A DNA stretch of 64,000 nt from Defluviicoccus sp. bin129 (lineage in GTDB: Bacteria > Pseudomonadota > Alphaproteobacteria > MPNO01): contig MPNO01000002.1 in the NCBI GenBank assembly GCA_002239065.1, forward strand, positions 95,110 to 159,109, given 5' to 3'. Below, piece after piece: positions 2 through 7,596 of the stretch (the first letter of the stretch is position 1; each line of letters opens with the position of its first letter). The position numbers and the translations under genes were made by a program. A model generated the notes under the pieces. The model was not told where the DNA came from, did no database searches, and saw nothing but the letters and a program-made list of their open reading frames with translations.

Positions 2-616
2 TACACCCTGCCGCTCTTGCAACGCACCCGGGCGACGGGGGTGGCCTACGATGTCTGCCCGACCGCCTGCCGCATGCTGGCGGAGCGCCTGGCGGCATTC
101 GTCGGCGATGGGCGCCTTGCCGTACGCAATGCCGGCGCCTCGGGGCTGGCCCGCTCGTTCCCGCAGGGGTTCGATCTTGCGCTTCTCGCCTTCGGTGTCC
201 TGGCCCATGTGGCGGGGCGGAAGGAGCGGGCGTCCCTGCTCGCCTCGCTCCGGGCAATCCTGAAACCGGACGGCGTTCTGGTCCTCAGCCTGCCCAACGC
301 CAAACGACGATTTCACGCGGAACAGCGCAGCGCGGCGCCGATGGTGCGGGATGGCGCGCTGGAGCCCGGCGATGTCTTGTACGCGCGCCATTCGGAGGCT
401 GGTACTATCGAGATGTTCTATCATCTGTTCTCGCCCACCGAGGCACGCGATGAATTGTCGAGCGCCGGTTTCAGGATCGAGAGCATCGAGCCGGAGAGCC
501 TGCTTCCGGAGACGGCCGTGGTCGGCAACCCCCTGCTGGCCCGGCTGGACGACCTGGCTTGCGGGTTCGCGCCGGCGGCGGTCGGCTACGGTTTTCTGAT
601 CGTGGCCCGACCGTGA
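2..616 (+). CDS. SAM-dependent methyltransferase, C-terminal part (5' end outside window)
   Basis: The frame is open to the left edge of the window, so the start and probably the SAM-binding glycine motif are missing. What remains looks like the C-terminal two thirds of a class I methyltransferase: a FDLALLAFGVLAHV segment (motif II/III region), then LRAILKPDGVLVLSLPN, the typical post-motif strand and helix, then a variable substrate-binding C-terminus. The substrate cannot be told. The TGA stop overlaps the GTG start of the next gene (GTGA), so translation is probably coupled to the receptor genes downstream and the three genes form one operon. Confidence 0.7.
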   Translation, partial: YTLPLLQRTRATGVAYDVCPTACRMLAERLAAFVGDGRLAVRNAGASGLARSFPQGFDLALLAFGVLAHVAGRKERASLLASLRAILKPDGVLVLSLPNAKRRFHAEQRSAAPMVRDGALEPGDVLYARHSEAGTIEMFYHLFSPTEARDELSSAGFRIESIEPESLLPETAVVGNPLLARLDDLACGFAPAAVGYGFLIVARP

Positions 617-2241
617 ATTTTCCCGGTTTTCCGATCACGGGCGGCAGGCCCCGGCGAATTCCCGCTTTGGTCCACATGGCCGTCGCGATCGCCGTGGGGC
701 TCTTCGGCGCATGGCCGGCGGCGGCGGACCGGCTCGACGAGATCCGGGCCAGGGGTTACCTGATCGCCGGCGTGAAGGCGGACTACCACCCGTTCGGGGT
801 GCGCAACGAATCCGGCAAGCTGGTGGGCTACGATGTCGATGTCGCGCGCGGCCTGGCGGACGCGATCGGCGTAGCGGTGCGGCTCACCCCGGTGACCAGC
901 GCCAACCGTCTGCAGAAGCTCGCGCGCGGCGAAATCGACGTCGTCATCGCCACGCTGGGCGACAACCGCAGCCGCCGCCGGCTGGTGCACATGATCGAGC
1001 CCCAGTATTACGGCGATGGCGCCAACGTGCTGATGCGCGAAGACTCGGGCATCTCCACCTGGGAAGGTCTCCGCGGCCGCACGCTGTGCAGCGTCCAGGG
1101 CTCGATCTGGAACCGCCTGGCCGCGCAACGCCTGCTCGTCGAGACGATTTCCCTCAACTCCACCCGCGAAGCCGCGCTCGCCTTGCGCAACGGACACTGC
1201 GTGGGCTGGCTGTACGACGAGGTCAACCTGCTGAGCGCCCTGGCGACCGGAGAGTGGAACGGGTTCACCGTGTCGCTGCCGACGCGCTTCGTCGCGCCCT
1301 GGGCGATCGCCATCAGGAAGGAGGAGGCGGGCTTAGGCCTCGACCGTCTTTTCGGCGACACCGTCGCGGTGTGGCATCGCGAAGGGTTCTTCCAGGAGCT
1401 GGAAAAGCGGTGGAACCTGCCCCCATCGCCCTATCTGCGGCGGGCGCACGAGACCTGGCGGGAAACCGACGAGTCGGGCGAACTCGTCTGCCGCCGCGAC
1501 GAGGACGGCAGCTGGCCGCTGGCCTGCCGGGAGCGCGCGCTCATCACCAGCGAGGAGGTGGGCGGGCTCACGGCGATATCCATGGCGTTCAAGGAATCGA
1601 CCGGTCTCGATGTCAGCCCGGTCTACGATCCGCTCAACCGCAGCGTATTCCTCCATGGTCTGTTCCTCACGGTCGCGCTTTCGGTCGCGACCGTTGTCGG
1701 CAGTATCGTGCTGGGCGCCCTGTTCGGCTGGGTCTTGCATCGCCGGATCCCTGTCCTCGCGCCTTTCCTGCAGGCGCTGTGCGCGGTGCTCCGGATGACG
1801 CCTCCGCTGCTCCAGCTCTACGTCTTCTTCTTCGGGATCGGCGGCATTCTGTTTGCCTATGGCTTCACGCTCGATGCGTTCTCGCTCGCCGCCGCGGTGC
1901 TGTCGCTCTATGCCGCGGCCAGCAACGCGGTGTCGTTCTCCCTGGCCGCGGACGTCGCGGCCGGCGCCGGCGGCAGGCTGGGGTTCTCCCTGCGCGAATT
2001 CCGCCGAGCCCTCGAGCTGTGCCATGCCGCCGTGGCGGGCAATTCCGTCAACATCGTCAAGGCGACCGGAATGGCGAGCACCCTCGCATTGCCGGAGCTG
2101 GTGCACGCCAGCACGGCGATCATTGCCGAAAAGGGCAATGACGCGGTGATGATGAACCTGCTGCTGCTGTGCTACTTCCTGCTGGTCTTCGCCACCGTGT
2201 GGGCGCTCCGCGGCTGGGAGCGTAGGGCGCACGGGACCTAG
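613..2241 (+). CDS. Amino-acid-type periplasmic binding protein fused to ABC permease domain
   Basis: Predicted 542-residue membrane protein. A hydrophobic signal or anchor (about residues 20-40) precedes a family 3 solute-binding domain (about 39-270) with the hallmarks VGYDVDVARGLADAIG-like and TSANRLQKLARGEIDVVIAT, typical of polar amino acid binders. A linker with two Cys (about 293 and 305) leads to a HisM/GltJ-like permease domain (about 345-535, about 5 membrane segments, including LRMTPPLLQLYVFFFGI). The EAA loop that should grip an ATPase is degenerate: a G-x-S is kept but the EAA residues are not. GTG 613 is chosen because it overlaps the upstream stop; ATG 676 is an alternative. 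The next gene starts 2 nt after the stop. Binding-protein-permease fusions are known. The lack of an ATPase gene and the partner gene suggest a receptor rather than an importer (inference). Confidence 0.85.
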   Translation: MNFPGFPITGGRPRRIPALVHMAVAIAVGLFGAWPAAADRLDEIRARGYLIAGVKADYHPFGVRNESGKLVGYDVDVARGLADAIGVAVRLTPVTSANRLQKLARGEIDVVIATLGDNRSRRRLVHMIEPQYYGDGANVLMREDSGISTWEGLRGRTLCSVQGSIWNRLAAQRLLVETISLNSTREAALALRNGHCVGWLYDEVNLLSALATGEWNGFTVSLPTRFVAPWAIAIRKEEAGLGLDRLFGDTVAVWHREGFFQELEKRWNLPPSPYLRRAHETWRETDESGELVCRRDEDGSWPLACRERALITSEEVGGLTAISMAFKESTGLDVSPVYDPLNRSVFLHGLFLTVALSVATVVGSIVLGALFGWVLHRRIPVLAPFLQALCAVLRMTPPLLQLYVFFFGIGGILFAYGFTLDAFSLAAAVLSLYAAASNAVSFSLAADVAAGAGGRLGFSLREFRRALELCHAAVAGNSVNIVKATGMASTLALPELVHASTAIIAEKGNDAVMMNLLLLCYFLLVFATVWALRGWERRAHGT

Positions 2242-2243
2242 AG

Positions 2244-4811
2244 ATGCCCAACGTCGTCGACGTCCTGATCACCTGGACGCCCTATCTGGCGGTCGGATTC
2301 GGCTGGAACATTCTGGTTTCGCTGGTCGCGATGGCGATCGGCACGGCGTTCGGGATAGCGCTCGCGGCGATGCGGGGAGGCCGCGTTCGCCGCGTGAGCC
2401 AGGGCGCCGGTGCGCTGACGATGCTGGCGGCCAGCGCGCCGACCTTCGTCATGCTGTTCTACCTCGCCTACATGGTCCCGGGGAGTTTCGCGATCCTCGG
2501 CATGACGGTCATCGTGCCGGTGTGGCTCAAGGCGTCGCTGGCGCTGTCGATCGCGGTCGCGGGATTCGTCTCGGACAACGCGTTTGCCGCGCTGCGGCAT
2601 CTGAGACGCGGCCAGACCACCGAGGCGCTGCTGTTCCTGCCGTCATGGACGAATTACTTCCTGATCATCGTGATGGCTTCGGCCACGGCCTCCGTCATCG
2701 GCGTACCCGAGATGGTCTTCCGGGTCGACACGGTGATCGCGGCGCTCGGCCAGCCGCAACTCTCGTTCTGGATCTACCTCTACGCGATGGGCTGGTTCCT
2801 CGCCTTCGCCGGCGTGGTCGCCCTGGTGATGCGGTTTGCCCATGTCCGACGCCGCGATGCGAGCAACAGCCTGTCCCGGCATCTGATCATGATCGTCACC
2901 GCATCGGTGGGCCTCGCCATAATCAGCGTGGCGGTGGCGTTGGGACTGCTGGCGCGCAACACGCTGATCGACCAGGCGGAAAACCAGGCCCGGATGGTCG
3001 CCGGGCTGATCGCGAGCGAAGCCAACCGGGTCGGTCTGATCTCAGACGAGATCGACCGCGTGATCCTCTCGGAGAACGAGGCGCAGGCCATAGCGATGGC
3101 CCATCTCGCCGACGTTCTCGGGGATGACGACCGGGCGCTCGCCGTCGAGATCGCGGAAATCACGGCCAACAGCGTCGTCGACGATGTCTGGGTGCTCGAC
3201 GACAAGGGCATGCCGTCGGCACGCGCTATCGAGGGGCTTGGCCATGCCGGCGCCGACATGGCGCTTGGCGATATCGACGGCCCGGTCCTCCAGACCCTGC
3301 TCTCGGGACGGCGCTACTCCGTCTCGTTCCGATCCGTGCCGAAGGACGGTTTGGAACTGCCGCTGCGCTATGTCGGGGTGCGCTCGCGCCAGGGCAGGTC
3401 CGTTCTGGTCGGCAGCCTTGCGAACAAGACAACAGGGCTGCGCACGACCATCGGCCTCGCCGCGGCGCTCGACTCGCTGGCCGCCCAGCCCGGCATACGG
3501 GCGATATGGGTGGTGGACGATTCGCTCAAGGTCACCGCCGCGGTCGCGGCGGGCGCCTTGCGGGACGCGGCACAGCCCGCCTTCGGATCGTCCGACAAGT
3601 CGCTCGCGAGCCGGGCCGTCCGAGGGGCCGCGCAATCGTTTCTCAGCGACCGCGCACTGCATGTCGCGGCGCCGATTCTCGATCGCGGCGGCGTCGCCAC
3701 CGGGGTTGCCGTCATCCACATGCCGCGCGACCATCTGGACGGGCTGCTGGGCGATTACATCGATTTCGGGCTTGCCATCTCCCTGGCCGCGTTCCTGATC
3801 GGGGCGGTGACAGCGACCCTGTCGGCCCGCCGTATCACACGACCGGTCACGGCGCTGACACAGGCCGCGGGGGAAATGGACCAGGGGAGTTTCCAGCCCG
3901 ATTCGCTCGATCGCTACCGCGAGCGGCGCGACGAGCTGGGGCGGCTGATCCACACCTTCCAGACCATGGCGCGCGAGGTCCAGGCCCGGCGGGAGCATTT
4001 GGAGGCCCTGGTCGCCGAGCGCACGCTCGACCTCGCGAACAAGAATGCGCTGCTCGACGAGGCGAACCGGCGCATGGAAGAAGAGCTCGCGGTCGCGCAT
4101 TCCCTGCAACACGCGATCCTGCCCAAGACCCTGCCGCCCGATACCGCCTATTCGGGCGACGCGATGATGACGCCGGCGCGCGAGATGGCGGGCGATTTCT
4201 ACGACTATTTCGCCTTGCCGGACGGCCGGCTGGGACTGGTGATCGCCGATGTCTCCGGCAAGGGCGTGGCCGCGGCGTTCTTCATGGCGATTACGCGGAC
4301 GGTCATGCGCGCCACGGCCCAGGAGATCCGTCAGGCCGGCGCCTGCATGCGCGTGGTCAACGACAGGATCTCCTCCGAGAACCCGCACGACCTGTTCGTG
4401 ACCCTCTTCTACGGCATCCTGGACCCGGCGACGGGAACGCTCACCTACGCCAATGCCGGTCACAACGCGCCCTTCCTGATCCGAAACGACGACGCTATCG
4501 AGACGGTGCCGATGACCGGCGGCGTGGCCGTCGGCGTCCTGCCGGATCTGGACTACGAGGAGAAGGCGGTGACGCTCGGCGTGGGCGATACGCTGTTCCT
4601 CTATACCGACGGAATTTCGGAGGCGATGAACACCCTGGGCGAAACCTTCGACGAGCGCCGCATCGAGGACGCGCTTTCGATCGGTCCGGGAGCGCCGGTG
4701 GACACGGTGATCGGAAACGTCACCCTGGCCGTCGGCGAGTTCGTCGGCGACGCCGAGCAGTCGGACGACATCACCTGCCTCGTGCTGCGGTACAACGGCA
4801 AGGAACCGTGA
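2244..4811 (+). CDS. ABC permease domain fused to sensor-HAMP-PP2C (SpoIIE/RsbU-type) phosphatase
   Basis: 855 residues in four parts. Residues 1-200 are a GltK/HisM-like amino acid permease domain (TM about 15-42, 55-78, 85-110, 138-155, 174-197; signature SVIGVPE at 150-156). Residues 213-236 are a TM helix leading into an extracytoplasmic region, 237-506, with two similar V-W-V-x-D-D segments (near 315 and 421) suggesting a double Cache sensor. TM 507-525 and a HAMP domain (about 526-580) lead through a coiled coil (580-620) to a PP2C phosphatase (620-850). Its metal-binding acids are intact: MAGDFYD (D651), ADVSGKG (D669), YTDGISEA (D789), DDITCLVL (D842). PP2C proteins of this class dephosphorylate STAS anti-anti-sigma factors. 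I know of no described protein with this architecture. The permease EAA loop is shortened by about 15 residues, suggesting it no longer binds an ATPase. Likely partner: the preceding binding-protein-permease fusion. Confidence 0.9.
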   Translation: MPNVVDVLITWTPYLAVGFGWNILVSLVAMAIGTAFGIALAAMRGGRVRRVSQGAGALTMLAASAPTFVMLFYLAYMVPGSFAILGMTVIVPVWLKASLALSIAVAGFVSDNAFAALRHLRRGQTTEALLFLPSWTNYFLIIVMASATASVIGVPEMVFRVDTVIAALGQPQLSFWIYLYAMGWFLAFAGVVALVMRFAHVRRRDASNSLSRHLIMIVTASVGLAIISVAVALGLLARNTLIDQAENQARMVAGLIASEANRVGLISDEIDRVILSENEAQAIAMAHLADVLGDDDRALAVEIAEITANSVVDDVWVLDDKGMPSARAIEGLGHAGADMALGDIDGPVLQTLLSGRRYSVSFRSVPKDGLELPLRYVGVRSRQGRSVLVGSLANKTTGLRTTIGLAAALDSLAAQPGIRAIWVVDDSLKVTAAVAAGALRDAAQPAFGSSDKSLASRAVRGAAQSFLSDRALHVAAPILDRGGVATGVAVIHMPRDHLDGLLGDYIDFGLAISLAAFLIGAVTATLSARRITRPVTALTQAAGEMDQGSFQPDSLDRYRERRDELGRLIHTFQTMAREVQARREHLEALVAERTLDLANKNALLDEANRRMEEELAVAHSLQHAILPKTLPPDTAYSGDAMMTPAREMAGDFYDYFALPDGRLGLVIADVSGKGVAAAFFMAITRTVMRATAQEIRQAGACMRVVNDRISSENPHDLFVTLFYGILDPATGTLTYANAGHNAPFLIRNDDAIETVPMTGGVAVGVLPDLDYEEKAVTLGVGDTLFLYTDGISEAMNTLGETFDERRIEDALSIGPGAPVDTVIGNVTLAVGEFVGDAEQSDDITCLVLRYNGKEP

Positions 4812-4844: not shown

Positions 4845-5249
4845 TCAGGTGCGTTTGGTCAAGGTCACGATATTGCGCCCGTCGCTGCGGCGATAGGCGA
4901 ACCCGTCCATCAATACGCGGACGAAGTGAACGCCGAGCCCACCGATGGGGCGGTGTTCGATCGGTGCGTCGGTATCGGGATGAGGCGCCCGGGTCGGGTC
5001 GTACGGCCTGGCGTCGTCCTCGAGCTCGATCACGAGCACGCCGTCCTCCACGCGGACGGTCATTTCGATCCGGTGCTGTTCGCCGTCGTCGTAGCCGTAG
5101 CTGATCGTGTTGGTCAGGAGCTCGTCGACCGACACGTTGATGGCGAAGGCGATATCGGGCGACACGCCGTGCTCGGCGCAAAACGCGTCGACTCTCTCGG
5201 CGGCGGCAGCAAGTTCTCGCAAGTCATTGATCAGTGAGAACTGGAGCAC
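4845..5249 (-). CDS. RsbW-like anti-sigma factor serine kinase (HATPase_c_2)
   Basis: About 134 residues, the usual size of stand-alone GHKL anti-sigma kinases. The N box is VDELLTNTISYGY, the G1 region is DDARPYDP (Ala in place of the usual Gly) and the G2 box is GGLGVHFVRVLMDGFAYRR. Such kinases phosphorylate a STAS antagonist and sequester a sigma factor or other partner; the PP2C protein convergent to it (33 bp between stop codons) is the natural opposing phosphatase. The frame stays open to 5453, but the extra N-terminus looks non-coding. GTG 5249 starts just before the domain, with a GAAAGG about 15 nt upstream, so the start is uncertain. No STAS or sigma gene is seen in the window. The 250-bp gap to glnN (5250-5499) holds the two divergent promoters; I found no convincing motif in it. 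Confidence 0.82.
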   Translation of the reverse strand: MLQFSLINDLRELAAAAERVDAFCAEHGVSPDIAFAINVSVDELLTNTISYGYDDGEQHRIEMTVRVEDGVLVIELEDDARPYDPTRAPHPDTDAPIEHRPIGGLGVHFVRVLMDGFAYRRSDGRNIVTLTKRT

Positions 5250-5499
5250 GGCGGGTTCGAAATGCCTTTCTTGAAAAATCGCGCGGCACTGCGGTCGCTT
5301 CTTCCATGTCTGCGCAACGACTTCGGCACCGGAAACTGCAATGGAGCTTTCACCCCAATAGTTTTGCGTTTTCGTCGAACAGGTCAAATGAAATGAACCA
5401 CGATCCGCGCCGCCGCGGGTCGAACGGTTTTTCTTGGTGATCCTTGCGCGCATGCATTAGCTTTCGGTACCCGGAAATGGCTCTCGCGGAAGGACGGTC

Positions 5500-7596
5500 A
5501 TGGCAATCACGCACTCCACGCACGAGGCTCCGACACAGGAGGTGGCGCTGCCGCCGGCCCTGGCGAGGATCAACAGCAATGTGCTGGACGACTCGATCCT
5601 GAAGAAGCTGGTCGATCCGGACGTCTACTTCGCGCTCGCCCAGTGCCGCGCGACGGGCGTGCCGATGGATCGGGACTTCGCCGACGCGCTGGCCAAGTCG
5701 ATCCGGGAATGGGCGCAGTCGAAGGGCTGCATCGGCTATTCGCACTGGTTCTCGCCGATGCGGGGTGCGATCCACGGCGAAAAGCTGGAAACCTTCGTCG
5801 GGGTGGATTTCGCCACCGATCGCCTGATCATCAACTTGACGGGCTCGGAGCTGTTCCAGACCGAGACCGACGGCTCCTCCTTCCCCAATGGCGGGCTGCG
5901 CGACACCCATCGGGCGGCGGCCTATATCGGCTGGGACACCGGATCGCCGCCCTTCGTCTACCGCCAGACGCTCTATATCCCGTCCGCCTTCGTGACCTGG
6001 AACGGCGAGGCCCTCGACCAGAAGACCCCCCTGCTGCGCGCCGACATGGCGGTCAACGAACAAAGCGTGCGGCTGCTCTCGCTGCTCGGGGACAGCGCGA
6101 CCAGGGAGGTGGTGTGCAATGTGGGCTGGGAACAGGAATTCTTCCTGATCGACCGGGAGAAGTATCTGGCGCGGCCCGACCTGGTGGCGGCGGGGCGCAC
6201 GCTGCTGGGTGCGGCGCCGCTGCGCGGCCAGGAGATGGACGGCAACTATTTCTCCAAGCTGTCGCCCCGGGTGAACCGCTACGTGGCGGAGGCGCGCGAC
6301 AAGATGTGGGAGCTCGGGATCTCGATCCATTGCACCCACAACGAGGTCGCCCCCGCGCAGCACGAGATCTCGCCGGTCTTCGGCCTCGCGAACCTCGCGG
6401 CGGATACCAACGTGCTCGCCATGGACGTGCTTCGCGACCTCGCCTTCGACCACGGCTTCACGATCCTGTTCCACGAGAAGCCCTTCGCCGGGATCAACGG
6501 CACCGGCAAGCACAACAACTGGGGGCTCAACACCGACACCGGCGCCAACCTGTTCGTACCGGGGGAGACCGAGGAGGAGAACCGGCGTTTCATCGCCTTC
6601 GTCGCGGCGCTGCTGCGCGGCGTCAACCTGCACGGCGACCTGCTGCGCTGCGGCGTGTCGACCGCGGGCAACGATCACCGGCTGGGCGCGCAGGAGGCGC
6701 CGCCCGCGATCCTCACCCTCCATCTGGGCGAGCGCCTGGAAGCCCATGTCAAGGCGGTCGCCGAGGGCGGCGACTTCGCGGGTTACGGAACCTCGCGCAA
6801 GGAGATCGAGATCGTGGCCCCGGTCGCCGATGTGCGGGCCAATCTGGAGGACCGCAACCGCACCGCGCCGTTCCCGTGGTGCAGCAACCGCTTCGAGTTC
6901 CGCGCCGTGGGCGGCAACCAGCATATCGCGTTCCCGCTGACCATGGTGAACGCGGCGCTGGCGGACAGCCTGAAGCACATGTGCGACGAGGTCGACGCCG
7001 GCAAATCCGTCGATCAGGTGATTCGCGAGACCATCCAGGAGCACCAGGGCGCCCTGTTCAGCGGAGACGGCTACTCCGACGCTCTCTACGAGCACGCCGA
7101 GAAGCACGGCCTGATCCACCTCAGGAGCAGCCCGGAAGCCTACGAAACCCTGACGGCCGACAAGAACGTCAAGCTGATGGGCGAGCTCGGCATCCTCAAC
7201 GAGCACGAGCTAGCGGCGCGCCAGAGCGTCCTGCAGGAGGCCTACGCCACCGAGCTCCACATCGAGGCGCGGGCGCTGCTGCGGATCCTCAGGACCCAGA
7301 TCCTGCCGGTCGCCATCGAGGATACCCGCGCCGACCGCGACTCCGGGTTCCAGTCGCCGATGTTCGACGAAAAGCGGAAGCTCGTCGAAGATCTCCTTTC
7401 GGAAATCGAAAAGCTCGCCGACACCTTCGAGTCCTTCCCGCACGACGATCCCGGACAGGCCGCGTCCTATGCGCACGAGACCCTGAAACCGCGCATGCAA
7501 TCCGCGCGCGACGTGGCGGACCGGCTGGAACTCCTGGTGGATGGCCGCGCATGGCCGTTTCCGACCTATTCGGAGGTCCTGCACCATCATCAGTAG
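5500..7596 (+). CDS. glnN: Glutamine synthetase type III
   Basis: 698 residues, the length of GSIII enzymes and much longer than GSI or GSII (about 360-470). ATP-dependent ligation of ammonia to glutamate in the cytoplasm. Diagnostic motifs: GWEQEFF (209-215), NEVAPAQHEIS (281-291), NGTGKHNNW (333-341), NDHRLGAQEAP (391-401) and the Arg-rich NRTAPFPW...NRFEFR (453-468) that binds nucleotide and glutamate. The ATG is preceded by GGAAGG at proper spacing. GSIII enzymes assemble as dodecamers and are not known to use the GSI adenylylation loop. The gene stands alone, divergent from the anti-sigma kinase and next to the amino-acid receptor genes, which hints at a shared nitrogen-related role (inference). 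Confidence 0.95.
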   Translation: MAITHSTHEAPTQEVALPPALARINSNVLDDSILKKLVDPDVYFALAQCRATGVPMDRDFADALAKSIREWAQSKGCIGYSHWFSPMRGAIHGEKLETFVGVDFATDRLIINLTGSELFQTETDGSSFPNGGLRDTHRAAAYIGWDTGSPPFVYRQTLYIPSAFVTWNGEALDQKTPLLRADMAVNEQSVRLLSLLGDSATREVVCNVGWEQEFFLIDREKYLARPDLVAAGRTLLGAAPLRGQEMDGNYFSKLSPRVNRYVAEARDKMWELGISIHCTHNEVAPAQHEISPVFGLANLAADTNVLAMDVLRDLAFDHGFTILFHEKPFAGINGTGKHNNWGLNTDTGANLFVPGETEEENRRFIAFVAALLRGVNLHGDLLRCGVSTAGNDHRLGAQEAPPAILTLHLGERLEAHVKAVAEGGDFAGYGTSRKEIEIVAPVADVRANLEDRNRTAPFPWCSNRFEFRAVGGNQHIAFPLTMVNAALADSLKHMCDEVDAGKSVDQVIRETIQEHQGALFSGDGYSDALYEHAEKHGLIHLRSSPEAYETLTADKNVKLMGELGILNEHELAARQSVLQEAYATELHIEARALLRILRTQILPVAIEDTRADRDSGFQSPMFDEKRKLVEDLLSEIEKLADTFESFPHDDPGQAASYAHETLKPRMQSARDVADRLELLVDGRAWPFPTYSEVLHHHQ

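Follow-up and report, generated by a model that had tools for sequence, protein, structure and literature searches.

What becomes of an amino-acid importer when its ATPase gene is missing and a protein phosphatase stands in its place? The question is raised by two adjacent genes, here called A and B, near the start of a 64,000-nucleotide stretch (the window) of contig MPNO01000002.1, positions 95,110 to 159,109, from the alphaproteobacterium Defluviicoccus sp. bin129. A first-pass annotation, made from the sequence alone, had read the pair as the content of an ATP-binding cassette (ABC) importer minus its ATPase, with a partner-switching output added. Our analysis suggests that A and B, an importer-derived binding protein and membrane subunits with a PP2C phosphatase, are probably an amino-acid receptor and not a pump. 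New here is that both permease domains lack the EAA coupling loop and that no ATPase of this kind occurs at the loop-less loci.

The open reading frames of A and B lie on the forward strand, and only bases 2242-2243 separate the stop codon of A from the ATG of B, the 2 nt spacing given in the first-pass annotation. The start of A was taken as the GTG at 613 (the longest open reading frame begins at the TTG at 559). We identified a family-3 solute-binding domain in A (Pfam SBP_bac_3, residues 50-267, E 2.6e-22), followed by a permease match (TIGR01726, residues 345-438, E 3.4e-9) that scored 37.1 bits against a cut-off of 42.2; a six-frame search of the genome gave 42.2 bits for the permease of A, listed over the cut-off. 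The permease part of B matched PRK15100 (E 2e-6) and TIGR01726 (E 5.2e-5) under the curated cut-offs, and Pfam BPD_transp_1 matched neither A nor B. Profile-profile comparison with eight ordinary amino-acid permeases gave 99.8% probability for both (E 4.1e-28 for B and 1.1e-28 for A). By these comparisons A and B carry two homologous permease domains, remote from BPD_transp_1. B continues into a HAMP domain (residues 527-580, E 8.1e-9) and a SpoIIE/PP2C domain (residues 659-850, E 3.9e-48); a transporter membrane domain and a signalling domain thus share one chain, the architecture of a transceptor. The domain content that had been claimed is borne out by Pfam, TIGR01726 and the profile-profile comparison.

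Key residues of the binding and output domains are conserved. Arg121, Arg122 and Asp202 are invariant in 68/68 A proteins; Arg121 or Arg122, together with Asp202, presumably hold the ligand, as their counterparts do in LAO- and His-binding proteins, so amino-acid binding by A has likely been retained. Putative metal-binding Asp residues of the phosphatase are also kept (651, 654 and 789 in 61/61 members with the domain; 669, 841 and 842 in 60/61). The topology fits if a five-transmembrane (TM) amino-acid permease has its C-terminus in the cytoplasm, for the added TM-sensor-TM segment would then place HAMP and PP2C there too. The predicted periplasmic sensor appears to have a helix and strand order like that of a double Cache domain, and weak Pfam dCache_1 matches cover it in 10/67 alignment members (best E 0.007). 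The structure model of A has a predicted local distance difference test (pLDDT) score of 85 and a predicted TM-score (pTM) of 0.70; the Foldseek and VIA matches listed for the models of both proteins are taken up by the solute-binding protein (SBP) and PP2C parts. Four cysteines of A (159, 196, 293 and 305; two in the binding domain, two in the linker) are invariant in 68/68 proteins, and may form disulfides.

Each permease of an ABC importer contacts its ATPase through a cytoplasmic helix, the EAA loop (PMC12136057). This coupling helix is absent from B and eroded in A: in 10/10 rows of a loop-less clade, 2 + 18 residues are gone from the B permease and 9-10 or more, including the motif, from the A permease. 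The stretch is kept in both permeases in 8/8 rows of ordinary importers and in 4/4 rows of a sister genus (G160, G260, G341, G419), where A has DSA or DST and B has DAA at the EAA position, with a Pro near the conserved Gly or Ala in B. One B row (G313) is partial, yet spans the loop. Two loci outside the tree, L071 and L072, also lack the stretch; L026, where the permease is cut, was left out. By loop length, the loop is missing in B in 24/24 fused homologues, and an EAA-like pattern occurs in three of the 120 A homologues listed, before the gap and with the rest of the loop missing. Both permeases show the EAA pattern at 3/4 ordinary loci, and the fourth (L125) is a variant with the stretch kept. 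With a further permease pair from the window's genome as root, a tree of the two permeases joined recovers the loop-less clade with 96% ultrafast bootstrap support, and 100% when the sister genus is included; support is low among the ordinary rows.

We compared 15 loci with a sensor-PP2C gene: L069 (the window), L070, L071, L072, L073, L025, L026, L028, L074+L127, L075, L079, L077+L126, L078, L128 and L080. L074+L127 is one genome on two contigs, L077+L126 is one genome, and L028 is counted once with L076 (same contig) and the nearly identical L027. Using tblastn with two true ATPases, and reading 9.5-19 kb at each of the 11 loci outside the sister genus, we did not identify an ATPase of this system in any of these clusters, including the window's. 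By comparison, the ordinary permease loci of the tree have an ATPase in 8/8 cases. The nearest outgroup consists of SBP-permease-permease-ATPase operons (4/4 in one set), with the ATPase standing where the PP2C sits here. Origin of the pair from an importer, with loss of the ATPase, is strongly supported by the missing coupling loops and by this outgroup, as the first-pass reading would have it. ABC ATPase matches at L027/L028 were set aside because their neighbours, a binding protein and permeases among them, look like a separate polyamine-type importer, as was one at L127, which looks like a zinc importer beside a Zur-like gene. Matches in a 979-aa reading frame (L126) and a 751-aa reading frame (L077) were taken for exporters.

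Members of the sister genus do encode the ATPase in the cluster (4/4 loci, tblastn identity 45-50%). In L128 and L080 it directly follows B1, the permease partner of A there; in L078 and L077 it lies with the genes on the PP2C side. The view that this family never has an ATPase was rejected: a signature pattern requiring SGG had missed these proteins, which carry SAGQ instead of SGGQ and were found by tblastn and alignment. Walker A, Walker B, the Q loop and the His are kept, and the one protein scanned matched Pfam ABC_tran (E 5.3e-34); with its altered signature, it may be a weakened motor. The expected lack of a co-encoded ATPase in homologues therefore held at 11/15 PP2C loci but failed in one genus (4/15), where the loops are kept. 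Coupling loop and ATPase are either both kept or both lost. The sister genus, a putative importer with an ATPase and coupling loops, reads as an older stage; since it already has the PP2C, the PP2C link looks older than the loss of the loop.

The phosphatase follows A closely. An even draw of 385 genomes of the class, the window's own genome counted, contained the sensor-PP2C in 8/385 (E 1e-8) and matches to A in 12/385 (E 1e-70). Matches to A of at least 40% identity occur in exactly the same 8/385 genomes as the sensor-PP2C (hypergeometric P 9e-17, or 1.7e-12 by genus, both ignoring genome relatedness). The other four matches to A (33-35% identity) belong to ordinary importers: stop codons separate the binding protein from the permease, and the ATPase adjoining the permeases is 63-82% identical to that of Paracoccus. 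Within the window's order the sensor was found in 4/27 genomes, all of the window's genus and one with two copies; a fifth genome of that genus, G004, gave no match to the sensor. It is present in 1/16 genomes of the order of G285 and in 4/4 of the order of G260.

Genes of a partner switch accompany the pair. The window's locus encodes a SpoIIE-type PP2C with its Asp residues, an RsbW-like kinase and a STAS protein with a phosphorylatable Ser; this Ser is conserved in 9/9 aligned proteins, and the nucleotide boxes of the kinase are kept in the 8 aligned. The presence of RsbW-like and STAS genes here supports a partner switch as the output, as proposed in the first-pass annotation. In the genome, which is 89% complete, B is the one SpoIIE match; there are five STAS matches and 14 HATPase_c_2 matches, two of them strong, including the kinase of the locus. 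The second strong match, on another contig (G000:C111:46642-47019), could share STAS proteins. Across the 15 loci, some of whose stretches stop before flanking genes could show, we identified A at 14, a free binding protein at 14 (L026 is cut by a contig end), STAS at 12 (a fragment in L026), a methyltransferase at 12, the ammonium transporter Amt at seven and glutamine synthetase III at five. Besides the window, glutamine synthetase III accompanies the locus in G003, in G285 and in both copies of G001, one of which a contig end truncates. At L128, STAS, PP2C, methyltransferase, free SBP, A, B1, ATPase and RsbW-like kinase form eight co-directional genes.

Permease and phosphatase are fused at 5/15 loci (L069, L071, L072, L073 and L025) and are separate genes at 10/15, so the fusion on which the first-pass annotation centred is real but not general. 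A single clean fusion event was rejected: the tree, with weak support, puts 13 split members within a clade spanning 24 fused ones. The fusion to the permease perhaps arose more than once (weak support, 0.61 and 0.76). A congeneric genome carries a second, split copy of the whole module (L070, G001:C182:17000-33000), with Amt, STAS and glutamine synthetase III alongside. The locus on a contig titled Anaerolineae (L027, JANQQD010000055.1) is nearly as in an alphaproteobacterial metagenome-assembled genome (L028), and is probably mis-binned.

Beyond the identity of the domains, we infer each step of the mechanism that follows. A periplasmic amino acid would close either A's own binding domain or the free binding protein of the locus, and the closed protein would dock on the A-B permease heterodimer. 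A helix change would then reach the PP2C domains by way of the TM-sensor-TM segment, HAMP and the coiled coil; coiled-coil linkers carry signals to such phosphatases, and a switch of this kind is described for RsbU (PMC12143880). The STAS protein would be the substrate of both enzymes, phosphorylated by the RsbW-like kinase and dephosphorylated by the PP2C, and loss of its phosphate would free or engage the kinase. A role in tuning nitrogen assimilation is suggested by the adjoining Amt and glutamine synthetase genes.

Several observations weigh against a receptor in which the permease pair governs the PP2C. The model of B is weak (pLDDT 72, pTM 0.37). RsbW-like genes are found at 12/15 loci and STAS genes likewise fall short of all, and in G160 the A and B1 genes lie about 11 kb away from the PP2C gene. 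Outside the class, we searched a draw of 398 genomes of the phylum with P0218, an A homologue named Azospirillum canadense, and obtained four matches: the window's own genome, G499 (37%, with internal stops like an ordinary importer), G566 (49%) and G685 (41%). The last two, one family of another class, both have a loop-less A-B1 pair (L133 and L134), and we identified neither an ATPase nor a PP2C within the 18 kb taken; elsewhere in these genomes the SpoIIE family gives weak matches that are nevertheless listed over the cut-off (E 2.8e-7 to 2e-4). Thus the pair has a role without this PP2C. The proposed pairing of phosphatase and A stood for the 8/385 genomes and 14/15 loci, but these two loci have the pair with no PP2C nearby. 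Finally, a relative of the sensor-PP2C in Azospirillum oryzae (30% identity) has 19 annotated neighbours, none of them a permease gene; a second record carries no annotation. Together with B's own periplasmic sensor, this relative suggests that the PP2C may read the sensor alone.

That last point leads to an alternative that we consider unlikely, if worth keeping in view: the PP2C answers to its own dCache-like sensor, and the permeases serve only to anchor or scaffold it, or as a passive channel nearby. Taken alone, the sensor, HAMP and PP2C of B already resemble an entire receptor, the split versions and the Azospirillum relative fit, and dCache_1 domains, weakly matched in the 10/67 members above, are known on SpoIIE proteins (PMC7584622). 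This reading is at odds with the occurrence of A and sensor-PP2C in the same genomes, their common cluster, and the perhaps repeated fusion.

It is less probable still, and we doubt it strongly, that A and B remain an importer powered by a shared ATPase whose gene lies in another part of the genome. Such sharing is reported among type I importers (PMC7658222), and the sister genus has an ATPase in the cluster. The stretch that would bind such an ATPase is, however, missing in B and eroded in A in every clade member aligned, and in DppBCDF the coupling helix mediates each interaction of transmembrane domain and nucleotide-binding domain (PMC12136057).

We regard as very improbable a loop-less receptor or channel whose constant partner is the methyltransferase, with the PP2C as a lineage-specific addition. 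The methyltransferase is a frequent neighbour of A, and it adjoins A-B1 in G566 (L133:7628-8428), where the PP2C is absent; however, tblastn did not find it in L134, L079 or L127, and the loop-bearing sister genus already has the PP2C. A gene for an NMT1_3 (TAXI-like) binding protein (L133:6298-7587) also lies beside the loop-less pair, and may provide a further input. A frame error or assembly artefact merging two separate genes, which the separate genes of most relatives examined might have suggested, can practically be dismissed because the fused form recurs in independent assemblies: a search with residues 1-500 of B listed 120 homologues, of which 22, on many contigs, are of fused length (853-855 aa, covering 99-100% of the query region) and two more (597 and 492 aa) seem to be truncated copies, and the fused gene is present in G000, G001, G002, G003 and locus L025.

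The amino-acid receptor thus remains the account that we favour for A and B. A broader proposal, which we advance tentatively and are slightly inclined to doubt, is that ABC importers yielded a clade of receptors: loop-less, ATPase-less permease heterodimers that kept the fused binding protein and pass ligand state to outputs that can be exchanged, in Alphaproteobacteria a PP2C partner switch and in the other class a different one, with a living intermediate genus holding importer, ATPase and PP2C switch in one cluster. If true, the loci would be a stepwise record from importer, to importer and PP2C switch in one cluster, to loss of loop and ATPase, to permease-PP2C fusion. They would also show in a natural setting how a permease dimer behaves when ATP plays no part, and would give a partner switch a defined input.

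Table 1. Positions of the features discussed, in window coordinates unless a locus is named.
Feature	Position	Strand	Remarks
Class I methyltransferase, 3' part	2..616	+	whole gene G000:C12:94793-95725
Gene A, 542 aa	613..2241	+	signal segment, family-3 solute-binding domain, linker with two invariant Cys, ABC permease domain
Solute-binding domain of A	about 760-1413	+	
ABC permease domain of A	about 1615-2235	+	about five TM helices, inferred from the model's helices
Site in A lacking about 10 residues and the EAA motif	1963..1968	+	near codons 451-452; place alignment-dependent
Gene B, 855 aa	2244..4811	+	permease domain fused to TM-sensor-TM-HAMP-coiled coil-PP2C
Permease domain of B (residues 1-205)	2244..2858	+	profile-profile match
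Site in B lacking 2 + 18 residues, the EAA coupling helix	2613..2639	+	place alignment-dependent
Predicted periplasmic sensor domain of B	2937..3743	+	between two TM helices
HAMP domain of B	3822..3983	+	Pfam
SpoIIE-type PP2C phosphatase of B	4137..4802	+	Asp residues of metal site conserved
RsbW-like GHKL kinase (HATPase_c_2)	4845..5453	-	convergent to B; Pfam
Type III glutamine synthetase	5500..7596	+	after the kinase; Pfam
Sister-genus ATPase	L078:5085-5804		
Sister-genus ATPase	L128:13496-14161		
Sister-genus ATPase	L080:2251-2937		
Sister-genus ATPase	L077:11310-11942		

Genes upstream of the window are, in order towards A, those for STAS (3.2 kb before the window start), Amt, the free family-3 binding protein and the methyltransferase. 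The last of these shares its final 4 bases with A if A begins at 613.

Receptors derived from other transporter families (CbrA, Ks-Amt5) and signalling binding proteins are known already. We found no report, in the open-licence PubMed Central (PMC) literature, of an ABC permease joined to a PP2C or of a motor-less ABC permease pair as a receptor. The closest transport systems are ordinary polar amino-acid importers (Paracoccus L111, Ancylobacter L112, Thalassospira L113), which share the family-3 binding protein, the two homologous permeases and the gene order; A and B differ in having neither an adjoining ATPase gene nor the EAA loop, with the PP2C in the ATPase's place. GlnPQ-type systems fuse binding protein and permease, recalling A.

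Among signalling systems, GlnH-GlnX-PknG of Actinobacteria is similar in that a family-3 binding protein is proposed to signal via a membrane protein to Ser/Thr phosphorylation governing glutamate and nitrogen metabolism. As these sources describe it, GlnX is no ABC permease but spans the membrane four times and has two helical domains in the periplasm, and the output is a kinase, whereas here it is a PP2C with STAS and RsbW (PMC6069109, PMC9769921). Neither a four-helix-bundle GlnX nor PknG was found in the Pfam scan of A, B and the kinase gene. CbrA (SLC5-histidine kinase; PMC13022988) and Ks-Amt5 (Amt-histidine kinase; PMC10433425) resemble B in joining a transporter fold and a signalling output in one chain. 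As described there, they belong to other transporter superfamilies, whereas A and B would form a two-subunit ABC permease with its coupling loop lost and a PP2C. Sorangium SpoIIE phosphatases with the periplasmic binding domain pfam00532 also link a binding-protein fold to a SpoIIE PP2C, but there another binding-protein family is fused to the phosphatase, and the part of that report available to us mentions no permease (PMC2887360). Compared with RsbU/V/W, SpoIIE/AA/AB and SiaA, what sets the present system apart is its input, which looks like an importer-derived receptor.

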